44,573 bases of DNA from Pelagibacteraceae bacterium (GTDB taxonomy: Bacteria > Pseudomonadota > Alphaproteobacteria > HIMB59 > GCA-002718135), in contig JAGFWP010000026.1 in assembly GCA_017639935.1 (NCBI GenBank), positions 1-44,573 on the forward strand. Reading direction: 5' to 3'. Position numbers and translations under genes: made by a program. How positions within the stretch are numbered: the first letter of the stretch is position 1; the number at the start of each line of letters is the position of its first letter. Below, one piece after another: positions 2,148 through 44,573 of the stretch. The notes beneath the pieces are model-generated. The model was not told the origin of the DNA. It searched no databases and was given only the letters and a program-made list of their open reading frames with translations.

Positions 2148-2516
2148 TTATTTAATTGTTTCTTTGTATTCATCATAATTCATTAGTTTTTTTAACTCCT
2201 CAACATCATTTAATTTAATTTTCATATACCAGCCTGAATTTTCAGGATCGCTGTTTATTAATTGAGGTGAATTTGTAAGTTCATTATTAACTTCAATGAT
2301 TTCACCGCTAATAGGAGCGTAGAGATCACTGGCCGCTTTTACTGACTCTACTACACCAACTTGATCACCAGCATTAATTAATCTTCCTACTTTTGGCAGT
2401 TCTATAAAAACAATGTCTCCTAGACTTTCCTGTGCATGATCGGTAATGCCAATGGTAGCAATTTCATTTTCAATCGATATCCATTCATGATCTTTCGAAT
2501 ATTTTTTTTCAGTCAT
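2148..2516 (-). CDS. gcvH: Glycine cleavage system H protein
   Basis: Lipoyl carrier protein that shuttles the aminomethyl group from GcvP to GcvT and is re-oxidised by lipoamide dehydrogenase (not encoded here). It has 122 residues, normal for the family. The lipoylation site is K60 in the motif GVVESVKAAS, and the N-terminal signature KYSKDHEWI lies at residues 5-13. Its ATG overlaps the gcvT stop by 4 bp (ATGA type), which indicates translational coupling in the order gcvT-gcvH-gcvP. Confidence 0.97.
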   Translation of the reverse strand: MTEKKYSKDHEWISIENEIATIGITDHAQESLGDIVFIELPKVGRLINAGDQVGVVESVKAASDLYAPISGEIIEVNNELTNSPQLINSDPENSGWYMKIKLNDVEELKKLMNYDEYKETIK

Positions 2517-3628
2517 ATTGTTCCTTTCCTGTAATTATGTTTTATAAAAGGTAGGTTAGTTAATTCAACTTCTTCCATATTATTTCTAATAGAGCAAAGA
2601 ATTTTACTAGAATTTTTTAAAATAATTTTATTGATATAAGCCATAGCGATGGAAGTATTCAAAGTTGGACTATATCCGCCACTAGTAATTGTACCTATGT
2701 TTTGATTGTTTTCATTAAAAAGTTTCATTTTAGAGCGTAGAATAGACTTAGATTTTGAAAGAATGCCCACTCTCTTTTGTGACACGCCTTCTTCTTTTTG
2801 TTTGGATATTATTTGATAGCCATTAAAACCACCTAACTTCATTCTTTCTTTAGAAACAGCCCAGGATAAGTTTGCTTCAACAGGGGTTATTTCTTCATAT
2901 AACTCATTGCCATAAAGACTCAATCCTGCCTCTAAACGTAGAGAATCTCTGCAGCCAAGTCCGCATAATATGACTTCATTATTTGACATAAGATCATTAA
3001 TCAAATTATCAATTGCAGAATTAGGTATTGATAATTCAAATCCATCTTCGCCTGTATATCCAGTGCGACTGACAAATATAGAATGGTTCTCATAAATAAA
3101 ATTTCTAATTTGCATAAAATACATATCTTCAATTCCATCAAATAGATTGGAAATAATTTTTGAAGAATGAGGTCCTTGAATTGCTAACAGAGAATTATTA
3201 TTTAAAATTGAATAACTCTTTACTGTATCAATAAAAATTTCCTCATCAATTTTTTTTCGAGAAGCATTATAAACAATAAAAAAGTAAGTGAGATCATCTA
3301 TTATTAATTTAGATATAATGATATCATCAATTATCCCGCCTTTTTCGTTTAAAATAAAAGAATAAGAAGAGCTGTTAAGTTTTAAATTATCTAAATTTAA
3401 AGGAATTATTTTTTCAAGTTTTGTGCAGTTAGACTCTGTGTTTTGAATTAATATTTGACCCATATGAGACACATCAAAAACACCTGCCGATTTCCTTGTA
3501 TGTAAATGTTCTTTAATAATTCCTGTTGAATAATTTATAGGCATTGAATATCCAACAAATGGAGCAAACTTGGCACCATGACTTTCATGATATTCGTTTA
3601 AAAAAATTTTTTTCAATAAATTAGGCAA
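2513..3628 (-). CDS. gcvT: Aminomethyltransferase (T protein), TTG start
   Basis: Tetrahydrofolate-dependent aminomethyltransferase that releases ammonia and forms 5,10-methylene-THF from the GcvH-bound intermediate. It has 371 residues, in the family range. It shows GCV_T features such as GVFDVSHMGQI near residues 50-60, SRTGYTGEDGFE in the middle, and the C-terminal domain with GTITSGGYSPTLN. The start codon is TTG at 3628: a GAGGAAAG Shine-Dalgarno at 3636-3643 sits 7 nt upstream, and the next in-frame Met is residue 28, inside the conserved N-terminus. The first gene of its operon, it lies just behind the tandem glycine riboswitch. Confidence 0.96.
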   Translation of the reverse strand: MPNLLKKIFLNEYHESHGAKFAPFVGYSMPINYSTGIIKEHLHTRKSAGVFDVSHMGQILIQNTESNCTKLEKIIPLNLDNLKLNSSSYSFILNEKGGIIDDIIISKLIIDDLTYFFIVYNASRKKIDEEIFIDTVKSYSILNNNSLLAIQGPHSSKIISNLFDGIEDMYFMQIRNFIYENHSIFVSRTGYTGEDGFELSIPNSAIDNLINDLMSNNEVILCGLGCRDSLRLEAGLSLYGNELYEEITPVEANLSWAVSKERMKLGGFNGYQIISKQKEEGVSQKRVGILSKSKSILRSKMKLFNENNQNIGTITSGGYSPTLNTSIAMAYINKIILKNSSKILCSIRNNMEEVELTNLPFIKHNYRKGTI

Positions 3629-3647: not shown

Positions 3648-3805
3648 ACCCCTCTGTCATTGTACCTGAGAGTTTAGTTATACAACTTGCACCTTCGGTA
3701 GAGCAATTAGCTCATTTTCCAGAGTTTTTTTTCCGCGGTCCTTTTTGCCTGAGAGTTTCCGGGTATGTTGCTCCTTCGGCTCTGTAATAAACAGTATCTC
3801 CCGCT
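3648..3805 (-). promoter_or_regulatory. Tandem glycine riboswitch upstream of gcvT
   Basis: Two glycine aptamers lie in tandem in the gcvT leader. Aptamer 1 (about 3804 to 3733) runs from GCGGGAGA through GCCGAAGGAGCAA to ACTCTCAGGCAAAAAGGACCGC. Aptamer 2 (about 3730 to 3648) has ACCGAAGGTGCAAG, then ACTCTCAGGTACAATGACAGAGGGG. The pairs CGAAGGNGCAA and ACTCTCAGG, each present twice, are the glycine-riboswitch core. Such riboswitches usually turn gcv expression on when glycine is abundant. The second aptamer ends about 20 nt before the TTG start, close to the Shine-Dalgarno, so control could be at translation; no separate terminator hairpin with a U-tract was seen. Confidence 0.95.
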
Positions 3806-3822
3806 TTATGAAAAATATTTGT

Positions 3823-3839: not shown

Positions 3840-4427
3840 TCAATTCAGAGGAATTAAATTTTTTTCTTTATTTTCTTGATATAATTTTGATAATTTAACG
3901 TATTCTTGGTAAATTTTCTTGATATTATTTTCGAAATTATATTCTTCTGAATCTTTTAATTTCTTTATTTCATCAATGATTGAATAACTTCTCCAATAAC
4001 TGTTTATCCTATTATAATCTCCGTTATCCAATTTAAAAATTTCTTTTAAAATATTAATATCATGAGGAATATTGAATAAATCTTTTGTTTTTTTATAAGG
4101 GAAAAAATAATAGATATTGTCAAAACCTGACCAGGTGATAGCTGATAAACATAATGAACAAGGCTCATGAGTAGATAAAAAAATACAATCAGTGGGTTGT
4201 GTCTTGTTATTTAGATTAAAATTAAAATATTCATTTATTGTTGAAATTTCCCCATGATTAAGCGGGTTAATAATTTCATTATTTGTACCAATAATAACTG
4301 TGGAAAGATCATTTTTATTTAATATGGCTGCTCCAAAAATTTTATTGCCTTTAGAAATTGATTTTTTTGTTGCTGGAATAATTTCATTTAAAATTTTTAA
4401 AATTAAAATATTGTAAAATTTAATCAT
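3840..4427 (-). CDS. CMP/dCMP-type (nucleoside) deaminase family protein
   Basis: Zinc-dependent deaminase of the cytidine/deoxycytidylate deaminase fold, 195 residues. The zinc and catalytic residues are H58-G-E60 (usually HAE) and P89-C90-x-x-C93. The family includes guanine deaminases, TadA-like tRNA deaminases and riboflavin-pathway deaminases. The long Lys/Glu-rich C-terminal tail (about residues 135-195) and the HGE variant do not match TadA, so the substrate is uncertain; a free base or nucleoside is the safer guess. It starts at ATG 4427, is divergent from the tupA-like gene (48 bp), and ends just before the gcv promoter. Confidence 0.8.
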   Translation of the reverse strand: MIKFYNILILKILNEIIPATKKSISKGNKIFGAAILNKNDLSTVIIGTNNEIINPLNHGEISTINEYFNFNLNNKTQPTDCIFLSTHEPCSLCLSAITWSGFDNIYYFFPYKKTKDLFNIPHDINILKEIFKLDNGDYNRINSYWRSYSIIDEIKKLKDSEEYNFENNIKKIYQEYVKLSKLYQENKEKNLIPLN

Positions 4428-4475
4428 TATAATTAGTGATTATATATAATAAAAGATCTTTAAATTAATAATTTG

Positions 4476-5273
4476 ATGTTTCATAAAATTTTTTTAATTA
4501 TTTTCATAAATTTAATAAATTTTAATGTTTTTGGAGATAATAATAGAATAATAATAGCTAGCACAACTTCAGCTTATGATAGTGGTCTTATGAACTATGT
4601 AAATAAGGAATTTGAAAAAAAATTTAACATTGATGTTCATATTTTAGCCCTGGGAACAGGTCAAGCTATCAGAATTGCAAAAAATGGGGATGCTGATGTT
4701 CTTTTAGTGCACGATACTCTTTCTGAAATAGAATTCATAAAAGAAGGTTATGGAAATGAAAGATACGATCTAATGTATAATGATTATGTAATTATTGGTC
4801 CTAAGAAAGATAATGAAAAATGTGATTCAATAGAAAAAACATTATTAAAAATTATTAATAATGAATTTATTTTTATTTCTCGAGGTGATGAAAGTGGTAC
4901 GCACAAAAAAGAAAGAGATCTTTGGAATATGATAGGGTTTAAATTTAAAAAACCTTCCTCTTGGTATAAAAAAATAGGACAAGGTATGGGGTCTGCTGTA
5001 ATTTTGGCAAATGAAATGAACGCTTATACCTTAAGTGATAGAGGTACATGGATATCAAGCAATAAAAAAGAAAATTTAAAAATAATATGTGAGAATATAC
5101 CTCCGCTTTTAAATCAATACGGTATTATTGCAGTAAATCAAAAAATTAATTCTAGAATCAATTCAAAAGACGCATACAAATATATAAATTGGATAATCTC
5201 TGATGAAGGGAAAAAATTAATTAATGGTTTCAGGATAAAAAATAAACAATTGTTTTTCTTTAACCATCATTAG
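4476..5273 (+). CDS. tupA: Tungstate/molybdate-type ABC transporter substrate-binding protein (TupA-like)
   Basis: Periplasmic oxyanion-binding protein. An N-terminal signal peptide (about residues 1-21) is followed by the TupA signature: ASTTSAYDSGL near the mature start, GTGQAIRIAKNGDADVLLVHD, then YNDYVIIGPK and SRGDESGTHKKE. The mature part, about 245 residues, fits the PBP2 TupA family. An in-frame TTG lies one codon upstream at 4473, but ATG at 4476 is the natural start. No tupB permease or tupC ATPase follows; the next gene is convergent. It is therefore an orphan binding protein here, with partners elsewhere or lost. Tungstate versus molybdate cannot be told from the sequence. Confidence 0.85.
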   Translation: MFHKIFLIIFINLINFNVFGDNNRIIIASTTSAYDSGLMNYVNKEFEKKFNIDVHILALGTGQAIRIAKNGDADVLLVHDTLSEIEFIKEGYGNERYDLMYNDYVIIGPKKDNEKCDSIEKTLLKIINNEFIFISRGDESGTHKKERDLWNMIGFKFKKPSSWYKKIGQGMGSAVILANEMNAYTLSDRGTWISSNKKENLKIICENIPPLLNQYGIIAVNQKINSRINSKDAYKYINWIISDEGKKLINGFRIKNKQLFFFNHH

Positions 5274-5275
5274 AC

Positions 5276-5310
5276 AAAAAAAAAGACCCAGCAAGCTAGG
5301 TCTCTTTCTT
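5276..5310. terminator. Bidirectional intrinsic terminator between tupA-like and EamA genes
   Basis: A hairpin with outer stem AGACC/GGTCT and inner AGC/GCT lies between two convergent genes. It is flanked by nine As on the left (5276-5284), a T9 tract on the minus strand, and by CTTTCTT on the right. The minus-strand version is the stronger and would end the EamA transcript; the plus-strand version would end the tupA-like transcript right after its stop. Confidence 0.72.
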
Positions 5311-5450
5311 ATATCGTGCATTTCCTCCCGATATAAATTATTTAAAGTTTCCTTTAAACTATTTAACTATTACCTTTGCGTGCAATAGATGATTAAAATC
5401 TATCAACTTTTTCAATTAATACAACTGTATCTATTAATAATTTTTGAAAT
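5311..5450. other. Structured non-coding stretch in the EamA 3' region (possible small RNA)
   Basis: The 200-bp spacer between the terminator and the EamA stop carries several inverted repeats: ATATCG/CGATAT (5311-5334) enclosing TGCATTTCCTCC, TTTAAAG/CTTTAAA (about 5340-5357), and ATAGAT/ATCTAT (about 5387-5405) followed by CAACTTTTTC. No plausible coding frame crosses it. On the plus strand the first loop exposes an anti-Shine-Dalgarno-like TTTCCTCC; on the minus strand it is part of the EamA 3' UTR. The direction of any RNA is not settled. Confidence 0.35.
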
Positions 5451-5514
5451 ATATAAAAAAATCAGAGGGAAACTTGTTAATAAAATGTGTAAAATTAATA
5501 TTTATCTAAGTGGA

Positions 5515-6468
5515 TTATCTTCTTAAAGGTTTATCTATTGTGATTTGAACATGTTTTTTACTTTCTCTAATAAATGTATAGATACCAGCGAACACTATGA
5601 GTCCAAGACCAATAAATCCTTTAAAACTCAATGTTTCCTTCCATATAATCCAACTAATTATCAAAGACCATATAATCAAAATATATTCAAAAGGAGCCAC
5701 ACTTGGTGGGGAACCAATTCTGTAAGCCTGAAAAATGCATAAAAAACCAATAGATCCAACAACTCCAATTAAAAACAATGAAAAAAGAATGTTAATGCTG
5801 TTTATAGACCAGGACATTAGTAGAAATTGAAAATTATCATTTAAAGGATTATTGTAAATACCATTACCTGTAATGACTAGCACTACTAATGAACTTATTA
5901 TTCCGCAAATATAAATATGAAAGATCTGTGAGAATAAATTATCTTTAGCTGAGGTTTTTTTTTGAATAATCATAGTTAAAGAATATAAAAAAGCACAGAT
6001 GATGGGGAAAGTTGTATAAATATTAAAATTATCTATATCAGGATCCATCACTAAATATACTCCTGCAAAACCAATGATCAAAGCTAACCATCTTCTCAAG
6101 CCAATAGTTTCTTTAAGAAATATGACTGAAAGAATGGATATGAAGAAAGGACATACAAAAAATAATGTTACTGCTAGAGCAAGGGGCAATTTAGACAATG
6201 AAAAAAAATACAAAGAAAAAGCAATAAAAAACATCAAACCCCTTAAAATAGTTAAGACTGGATAATGAGTTTTGAAAATAATAGGCTCTTTTCTAAATTT
6301 CAAGAATATTGATAAAAAAATCACTCCTAAAAGAGCTCTAACAAATAAAATTAAAAAAATATTAGTTTCAGAAGATATAAGTTTAATGACAGTATCTTGA
6401 CAAGCAATTACACTCATACCTAGAATTATTAAAATGATGGCTTTCGGAGTGTTTTCTTTGATTTCCAT
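5515..6468 (-). CDS. EamA/DMT-superfamily transporter
   Basis: Inner-membrane protein of the drug/metabolite transporter superfamily, 317 residues with about ten hydrophobic segments in two EamA repeats (about residues 10-145 and 165-300). The first helix has GMSVIACQDTVIKLIS and the repeat end reads VFFVCPFFISILSVIFLKE, both typical of the RhaT/YdcZ-like branch. Substrate unknown; relatives export amino acids or small metabolites. The ATG at 6468 lies only 27 bp from the divergent anmK start, so the two share a very short promoter region. The basic C-terminal tail is cytoplasmic by the positive-inside rule. Confidence 0.88.
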   Translation of the reverse strand: MEIKENTPKAIILIILGMSVIACQDTVIKLISSETNIFLILFVRALLGVIFLSIFLKFRKEPIIFKTHYPVLTILRGLMFFIAFSLYFFSLSKLPLALAVTLFFVCPFFISILSVIFLKETIGLRRWLALIIGFAGVYLVMDPDIDNFNIYTTFPIICAFLYSLTMIIQKKTSAKDNLFSQIFHIYICGIISSLVVLVITGNGIYNNPLNDNFQFLLMSWSINSINILFSLFLIGVVGSIGFLCIFQAYRIGSPPSVAPFEYILIIWSLIISWIIWKETLSFKGFIGLGLIVFAGIYTFIRESKKHVQITIDKPLRR

Positions 6469-29384: not shown

Positions 29385-29458
29385 GGCTCGGTGGCAGAGT
29401 GGTTATGTAGGGGCCTGCAAAGCCTTGCACAGCGGTTCGATTCCGCTCCGAGCCTCCA
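29385..29458 (+). tRNA. tRNA-Cys (GCA)
   Basis: Cloverleaf read from sequence: acceptor GGCTCGG pairs with CCGAGCC; anticodon stem GGGGC/GCCTT with loop CTGCAAA gives anticodon GCA; T-arm AGCGG-TTCGATT-CCGCT. Discriminator T, and CCA is encoded (29456-29458). Followed 48 bp later by tRNA-Asn on the same strand. Confidence 0.96.
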
Positions 29459-29506: not shown

Positions 29507-29582
29507 TCCCCAGTAGCTCAGTTGGTAGAGCAAACGACTGTTAATCGTTGGGTCGCTGGTTCGAGCCCGGCCTGGGGAGCCA
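29507..29582 (+). tRNA. tRNA-Asn (GUU)
   Basis: Acceptor TCCCCAG pairs with CTGGGGA; D-arm GCTCAGTTGGTAGAGC; anticodon stem AACGA/TCGTT with loop CTGTTAA gives anticodon GTT; T-loop TTCGAGC; discriminator G and encoded CCA (29580-29582). Its 3' end is 2 bp from the stop of the convergent hydrolase gene. Confidence 0.97.
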
Positions 29583-44521: not shown

Positions 44522-44573
44522 TGGCGCGCTCTGCAGGATTCGAACCTGCGACCCTCGGTTTAGAAAACCGATG
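44522..44573 (-). tRNA. tRNA-Arg (UCU), 5' part outside the window
   Basis: The minus strand shows the 3' half: anticodon stem TCGGT/ACCGA with loop TTTCTAA gives anticodon TCT; T-arm GCAGG-TTCGAAT-CCTGC; acceptor AGAGCGC with discriminator G and encoded CCA at 44522-44524. It closely resembles tRNA-Arg(UCU) of other proteobacteria. The acceptor 5' strand and D-arm lie beyond the right edge. Confidence 0.92.

Follow-up and report, generated by a model that had tools for sequence, protein, structure and literature searches.

The hairpin cluster in the spacer between an EamA-family transporter gene and a solute-binding protein gene is the small RNA IMES-4. In the window (the whole 44,573-nucleotide stretch of Pelagibacteraceae DNA analyzed here), the minus-strand stretch 5389-5310 matches the Rfam model of IMES-4 (RF02037) over all 80 positions, scoring 88.3 bits where 48 is the cut-off, and our own covariance model, R1, whose source alignment contains the window's copy, matches 5391-5276 with 122.9 bits. 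The other Rfam families matching at this spot stay below their cut-offs (Spy490380c, 28.6 bits with a cut-off of 65; whalefall-1, 14.1 bits with a cut-off of 37), and the window's genome holds one IMES-4 copy. IMES-4 is a known RNA family that is not known to have an assigned function, and the window's copy is a good member of it. The IMES motifs were reportedly first described in about 2009 from marine metagenome and metatranscriptome data, and to our knowledge, IMES-4 had until now been a seawater-sequence motif without an assigned host or function. Literature searches for IMES-4, for IMES RNA, IMES-1, or IMES-2, and for RF02037 found no paper on these RNAs, and the consulted parts of PMC2704228, PMC2864571, and PMC5069720 do not treat IMES-4. 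A previous sequence-only reading had described a spacer with no plausible gene, which holds for 5274-5514, where there is no frame of its own of at least 60 aa between the EamA and solute-binding protein genes. It had also proposed a structured small RNA, to be checked by an Rfam search and by the covariance of the stems among relatives, and both the Rfam match and the covarying stems bear this out; overall, what it observed is partly confirmed and how it interpreted this is partly supported.

The predicted transcript, of ~115 nt, spans 5276-5390 on the minus strand and comprises three hairpins and an intrinsic terminator, both ends being placed from the Rfam match, R1, and the predicted fold; Rfam model positions 1-80 cover 5310-5389 of it. 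Stem I (5382-5389 with 5366-5373, the hairpin occupying 5366-5389) carries loop I, ACGCAAAG (5374-5381), and among the aligned copies, 4 of its 8 pairs are changed on both sides, with 97.7% of cells paired; in the window's copy its outermost pair is non-standard. Stem II (5352-5364 with 5335-5347, hairpin 5335-5364) is closed by a GAAA tetraloop at 5348-5351 and has 12 of 13 pairs changed on both sides and 90.4% of cells paired, while stem III (5329-5334 with 5311-5316, hairpin 5311-5334) bears loop III, GGAGGAAAUGCA (5317-5328), with 4 of 6 pairs changed on both sides and 99.5% of cells paired. The three-stem consensus structure of IMES-4 is thus upheld by compensatory changes in helices 1-3 (4/8, 12/13, and 4/6 pairs). 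In the relatives, conservation extends further, via an A-rich linker, to the predicted intrinsic terminator (5276-5308, minus strand), which consists of a stem (5296-5308 with 5279-5291; both sides changed in 6 of 13 pairs, with 95.8% of cells pairing), a CUUG tetraloop (5292-5295), and a T tract (5284-5276). The main inverted repeats pointed out earlier are present, but on the minus strand the conserved set proved to be stems I, II, and III plus the terminator; the conserved structure does not include the ATAGAT/ATCTAT repeat, at around 5385-5404. The minus-strand RNA from 5268 to 5400 has a predicted fold of -35 kcal/mol (z = -4.27), and 0 of 200 shuffles fold as well.

The alignment behind these counts holds 33 copies, namely 32 of the 54 distinct sequences and the divergent copy of G109. 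Over the 40 pairs of the four helices, 95.0% of cells are paired, and 26 pairs are changed on both sides, compared with a shuffle mean of 13.3; the covariation score is 0.339, against 0.177 in shuffles and at most 0.117 in slid versions, with the qualification that these controls are imperfect, as the shuffles do not preserve relatedness and the consensus itself supplied the structure. Helix 4 is misaligned in three copies that have another terminator (the first of L211 and both of L233), and these were counted anyway.

Judging from the sequence comparisons, IMES-4 sits at one fixed locus across a family of small-genome bacteria. This family presumably falls within the HIMB59/AEGEAN-169 group, although its genomes did not turn up in term searches of PMC10308909, PMC10734472, and PMC10308929. 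A match was found in 78 of 162 genomes of the host's order, all of them within the window's own family, so that 78 of 110 family genomes and 0 of 52 genomes of the sister family have it. IMES-4 is present in every one of the 10 family genomes with a completeness of at least 90%, and among the 32 of 110 without a match, the 20 that are listed are 56-85% complete. A sample of the class gave matches in 2 of 385 genomes, both belonging to the same family; outside the family, R1 reached no more than 28.0 bits in this sample (best E 0.0018) and 33.4 and 31.8 bits at L118 and L132, two loci chosen for their shared loop letters, whereas even the weakest of the accepted IMES-4 copies scores 93 bits. 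Searches over 40 genomes ran with stricter filters, at which weak matches are lost. Among the 119 loci listed for a 16-letter pattern in named genomes, at least 10 have a copy scoring 93 bits or more. For carriage by phages, there was no match in phage records, and R1 matched 0 of 35 viral contigs sharing the 16-letter loop pattern. The locus can also be followed by way of anmK: each of the 70 genomes with an anmK match at E 1.2e-88 or better has IMES-4 (70/70, counted by eye), and of the ten genomes with weaker anmK matches, six have IMES-4 and four do not (G007, G068, G024, and G071). The matches of G007 and G068 are 37-39% identical and probably represent a paralogue, and those of G024 and G071 are partial genes at the start of a contig that lack the side toward IMES-4. 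Tandem IMES-4 copies, 218 bp apart, occur in two genomes (G021 and G093). Tandem copies are seen at loci L211 and L233, at about 4000-4330, the next gene at L233 being gcvT instead of a deaminase gene; the two copies of L233 are nearly identical in the body and both have GCAA as terminator loop, a pattern suggestive of gene conversion.

In our judgment, IMES-4 is quite probably an independently transcribed, trans-acting RNA of ~115 nt from the minus strand, with loops I and III as its contact surface, operating without Hfq, ProQ, or CsrA. It would be transcribed from its own promoter and end at its own intrinsic terminator, and it would present three side-by-side hairpins in which the tetraloops of stem II (GAAA) and the terminator (CUUG or GCAA) look purely structural, leaving the conserved purine-rich loops of stem I (ACGCAAAG) and stem III (GGGAGGAAAUG) for contact. 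On this model, IMES-4 is a standing core RNA most likely acting in trans, its loops binding a protein or another RNA. Both the action in trans and the role of the loops are what we infer. The motif GGAGGAAATG is found in every copy retrieved (L234 judged by eye), and the letters of loop I are kept in all copies but that of G109; this conservation of letters makes loops I and III likely contact sites. The terminator tetraloop, by comparison, goes from CUUG to GCAA in the variant tandem copies (L211 and L233), and therefore shape seems to matter over letters there. The divergent copy, L234 (G109, about 3999-4118), has CTCTTCAAAAGG in place of CACGCAAAGG in loop I and retains loop III. A pairing between loop I and the terminator loop (GCAA with UUGC), noticed by eye only, does not hold in copies with GCAA as the terminator loop, and we rejected it. 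We likewise considered a small protein gene beginning at the AUG of loop III. In the 54 distinct copies, this frame meets a stop at codon 5 in 15 and at codon 3 in 2 and is shifted in 6, so it is not kept in 23 of 54 and this candidate was also rejected. The frame is open to the T tract, unshifted, in the other 31, and this stands against the trans-acting reading, as do the changed loop I of G109 and the 32 of 110 family genomes without a match.

Three protein partners of familiar small RNAs were not found in the relatives searched. Among 40 relatives there were no matches to Hfq (PF17209), ProQ (PF04352), or CsrA (PF02599; the window's own genome included), and as controls, matches to these were obtained in 5, 1, and 3 of 14 named genomes, respectively. 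With 0 of 40 for each protein, an Hfq-dependent, a ProQ-associated, and a CsrA-titrating RNA were all rejected as classes for IMES-4. RNAs that act as CsrA/Rsm decoys carry GGA in hairpin loops, according to the portion of PMC8058203 consulted, and in this IMES-4 resembles them; it differs in having few GGA sites, and CsrA was matched in 0 of 40 relatives. Base-pairing partners were sought as perfect complements of both loops in the 40 relatives. For the 10-mer of loop I, IMES-4 itself accounts for 22 of 27 places, and the other five are scattered (G001, G002, G082, G109, and G115). For the 11-mer of loop III, 15 sites other than IMES-4 were read, of which 12 are antisense to a long frame, one is sense, and two have no long frame. 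Among the sites read, these perfect complements include no conserved sense-strand target, which weakens the case for base-pairing in trans.

A more specific form of trans action, which we regard as unlikely, has loop III (GGGAGG) pairing with the 16S rRNA tail, at its anti-Shine-Dalgarno sequence, and thereby holding or tuning 30S subunits in cells whose own genes rarely have Shine-Dalgarno sites; such a Shine-Dalgarno-like contact is possible but weakly supported. Speaking for the contact, three relatives whose 16S tail was read (G032, G045, and G079) all have GGATCACCTCCTTTCT there, and GGAGGAAATG is present in every IMES-4 copy retrieved. The predicted duplex of loop III with this tail amounts to -11.7 kcal/mol. 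Of the window's 33 gene leaders, one pairs this strongly or more so, and GGAGG stands ahead of one of its 33 first-ATG frames with 150 aa or more. However, 8.6% of loop III shuffles pair equally well, GGAGG is predicted to be exposed only in part (mean unpaired values of 0.35, 0.84, 0.48, 0.92, and 1.0 across the ensembles), and the pairing of loop I with the 16S tail is weak at -3.3 kcal/mol. The GGAGG also lies just 2 nt from the AUG, which is close for normal initiation. The pattern used for the 16S tail had 0 matches in the window's own genome assembly. Shine-Dalgarno motifs are rare before the 33 window frames (GGAGG in 1/33, AGGA in 2/33) though the 16S tail of the three relatives keeps CACCTCCTTTCT. 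One could go a step further, as a long shot, and picture IMES-4 as a core RNA independent of Hfq, ProQ, and CsrA that shows a Shine-Dalgarno-AUG mimic to the 16S tail, meets few competing mRNAs, and sets the number of free 30S subunits; if true, this would be translation control via an RNA mimicking a start site.

The genes around IMES-4 were compared in 75 of the 78 matching genomes (G076, G085, and G097 omitted), with frames taken as the longest non-overlapping ones. They bear on a reading of IMES-4 as a cis-acting leader or attenuator of a downstream deaminase gene, in which the hairpins would sense something and the terminator would set read-through, a reading that we hold to be quite unlikely. 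It is true that 68 of the 75 genomes have a same-strand deaminase gene next, with a median distance of 43 nt from the RNA, just as a cis-acting leader would have, which counts against an independent trans-acting RNA, and that hairpins followed by a terminator make a leader-like layout. Yet the RNA and its terminator persist in the other seven genomes, where the next gene is a convergent solute-binding gene (G000, G001, and G108), gcvT (two), or an FKBP/rhodanese gene (two), so the constant downstream same-strand gene of a riboswitch or cis leader is not there (68 deaminase, 3 convergent, and 4 other), and the terminator stem covaries as one hairpin. In addition, IMES-4 gives a single match in 76 of 78 genomes and a tandem pair in the other two, and therefore a displaced deaminase gene has no copy of its own. 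In the window, the gene downstream is the convergent solute-binding protein gene (4473-5273, plus strand, Pfam PF12849). Only in G000, G001, and G108, out of the 75, does a PF12849 gene sit between IMES-4 and the deaminase gene. Elsewhere in the window, a glycine riboswitch aptamer (RF00504, 59.3 bits) lies at 3726-3813 on the minus strand ahead of gcvT (2513-3628), in the same gene block, and there are tRNA genes at 29385-29455 and 29507-29579 on the plus strand and a third, at 44525-44573 on the minus strand, that is cut by the window end.

On the upstream side, the window has the EamA-family transporter gene on the same strand as the RNA (5515-6468, minus strand, Pfam PF00892), and this bears on the earlier proposal of a 3'-UTR-derived RNA, here processed from the EamA mRNA. 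A same-strand EamA frame is upstream in 21 of the 75 genomes, the window's among them (split in L206), but in 52 of 75 the upstream neighbor is anmK, on the opposite strand and divergent, and the RNA is intact there; the remaining two have a short frame overlapping the RNA and no frame, respectively. At L227 (G001 C15:12266-13367), anmK is in two pieces with stops. The constant place behind a co-directional gene that marks an mRNA 3'-UTR-derived RNA is therefore missing, and most copies in both kinds of context have promoter-like sequence, so we find the proposal unsupported and very unlikely, and IMES-4 is probably not a product of the EamA 3' UTR.

The promoter-like sequence in the window consists of a possible -35 element, TTGTAT (5419-5424, minus strand), and a possible -10 element, TAGATT (5397-5402, minus strand), 6 nt upstream of the predicted RNA. 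Across copies, the -35 position reads TTGATT or TTGATA in 63 of 77 and the -10 position TAAATT in 42 of 77, and a spacing of 17 is best in 73 of 77, in a count that allowed the -10 to shift by one base and picked the spacing among 16-18. A freer search gave a mean of 8.7 of 12, versus 7.2 in mononucleotide shuffles, and at least 9 in 70% of copies versus 17%, the copies being related and hence non-independent; it preferred a hexamer closer to the RNA in many copies, so the exact -10 is not fixed. The -35 element is weak in the window, where the pair TTGTAT-16-TAGATT reaches only 7 of 12, about the shuffle mean, and the general consensus scan of the window reported no promoter at 5424-5397, both of which tell against transcription of IMES-4 from its own promoter. 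That scan yielded 23 promoter-like sites, no more than in shuffles (21.3). The same scan reported no terminator on either strand, probably because the stem continues through the A and T tracts. Use of this promoter and the exact ends of the RNA are likewise what we infer.

The strand of IMES-4 can be read from its paired cells, among which G-U outnumbers A-C by 116 to 9, or 29 to 5 by pair column; with G-U this far above A-C, the RNA is, on this comparative evidence, that of the minus strand, and the exposed loop is therefore GGGAGGAAAUG, which is Shine-Dalgarno-like, and the TTTCCTCC noticed earlier is its complement. The sequence-only reading had the letters right, as the ATATCG/CGATAT stem (5311-5316 with 5329-5334) does enclose TTTCCTCC (5321-5328), but not the plus-strand anti-Shine-Dalgarno loop that it drew from them. 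The bidirectional terminator that it described stands on the minus strand, as a G+C-rich hairpin followed by nine T (5302-5276); a U.G pair in the terminator stem (columns 104/113), present in 30 of 33 copies, becomes C.A on the plus strand, and the plus-strand side is therefore weak. A plus-strand reading in which TTTCCTCC would be an anti-Shine-Dalgarno loop, as in the Rhizobiales CCUCCUCCC RNAs, is almost certainly wrong even though the letters are present and anti-Shine-Dalgarno loop RNAs do exist (PMC3927594, in the part consulted), given the G-U/A-C asymmetry, the Rfam match on the minus strand, the C.A interruption, and a fold close to shuffles (-21.5 kcal/mol and z = -1.53 for the plus-strand RNA 5276-5450, a longer and different stretch, with 13 of 200 shuffles as good). 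An RNA with a CCUCC loop was accordingly rejected as a class, the loop on the transcribed strand being GGGAGGAAAUG by both covariation and Rfam. In many genomes R1 also gives weak matches, up to 38.2 bits, on the opposite strand of the locus or next to it, and these are presumably mirror images of the stems. The likeness to the Rhizobiales CCUCCUCCC RNAs (SmelA075/SmelA099), as far as the consulted part of PMC3927594 describes them, lies in three to four hairpins whose loops are conserved and whose stems vary more; unlike in those RNAs, the one such loop of IMES-4 lies on the complementary side, as GGGAGGAAAUG.

Compared with the IMES-4 model in Rfam, the RNA described here has the same sequence and structure over the 80 model positions, both conserved loops included, and we add to it a terminator at the 3' end, which lengthens it by 34 nt, as well as a promoter-like element, the fixed position of the locus, and the family of its hosts. 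IMES-4 is thereby assigned to one bacterial family, and its strand, its probable ends, a promoter-like sequence, and its constant place in the genome are described. This tie to a family and a locus makes its function directly testable, as a search for the protein or RNA that may bind its loops in cells that gave no match to Hfq, ProQ, or CsrA.
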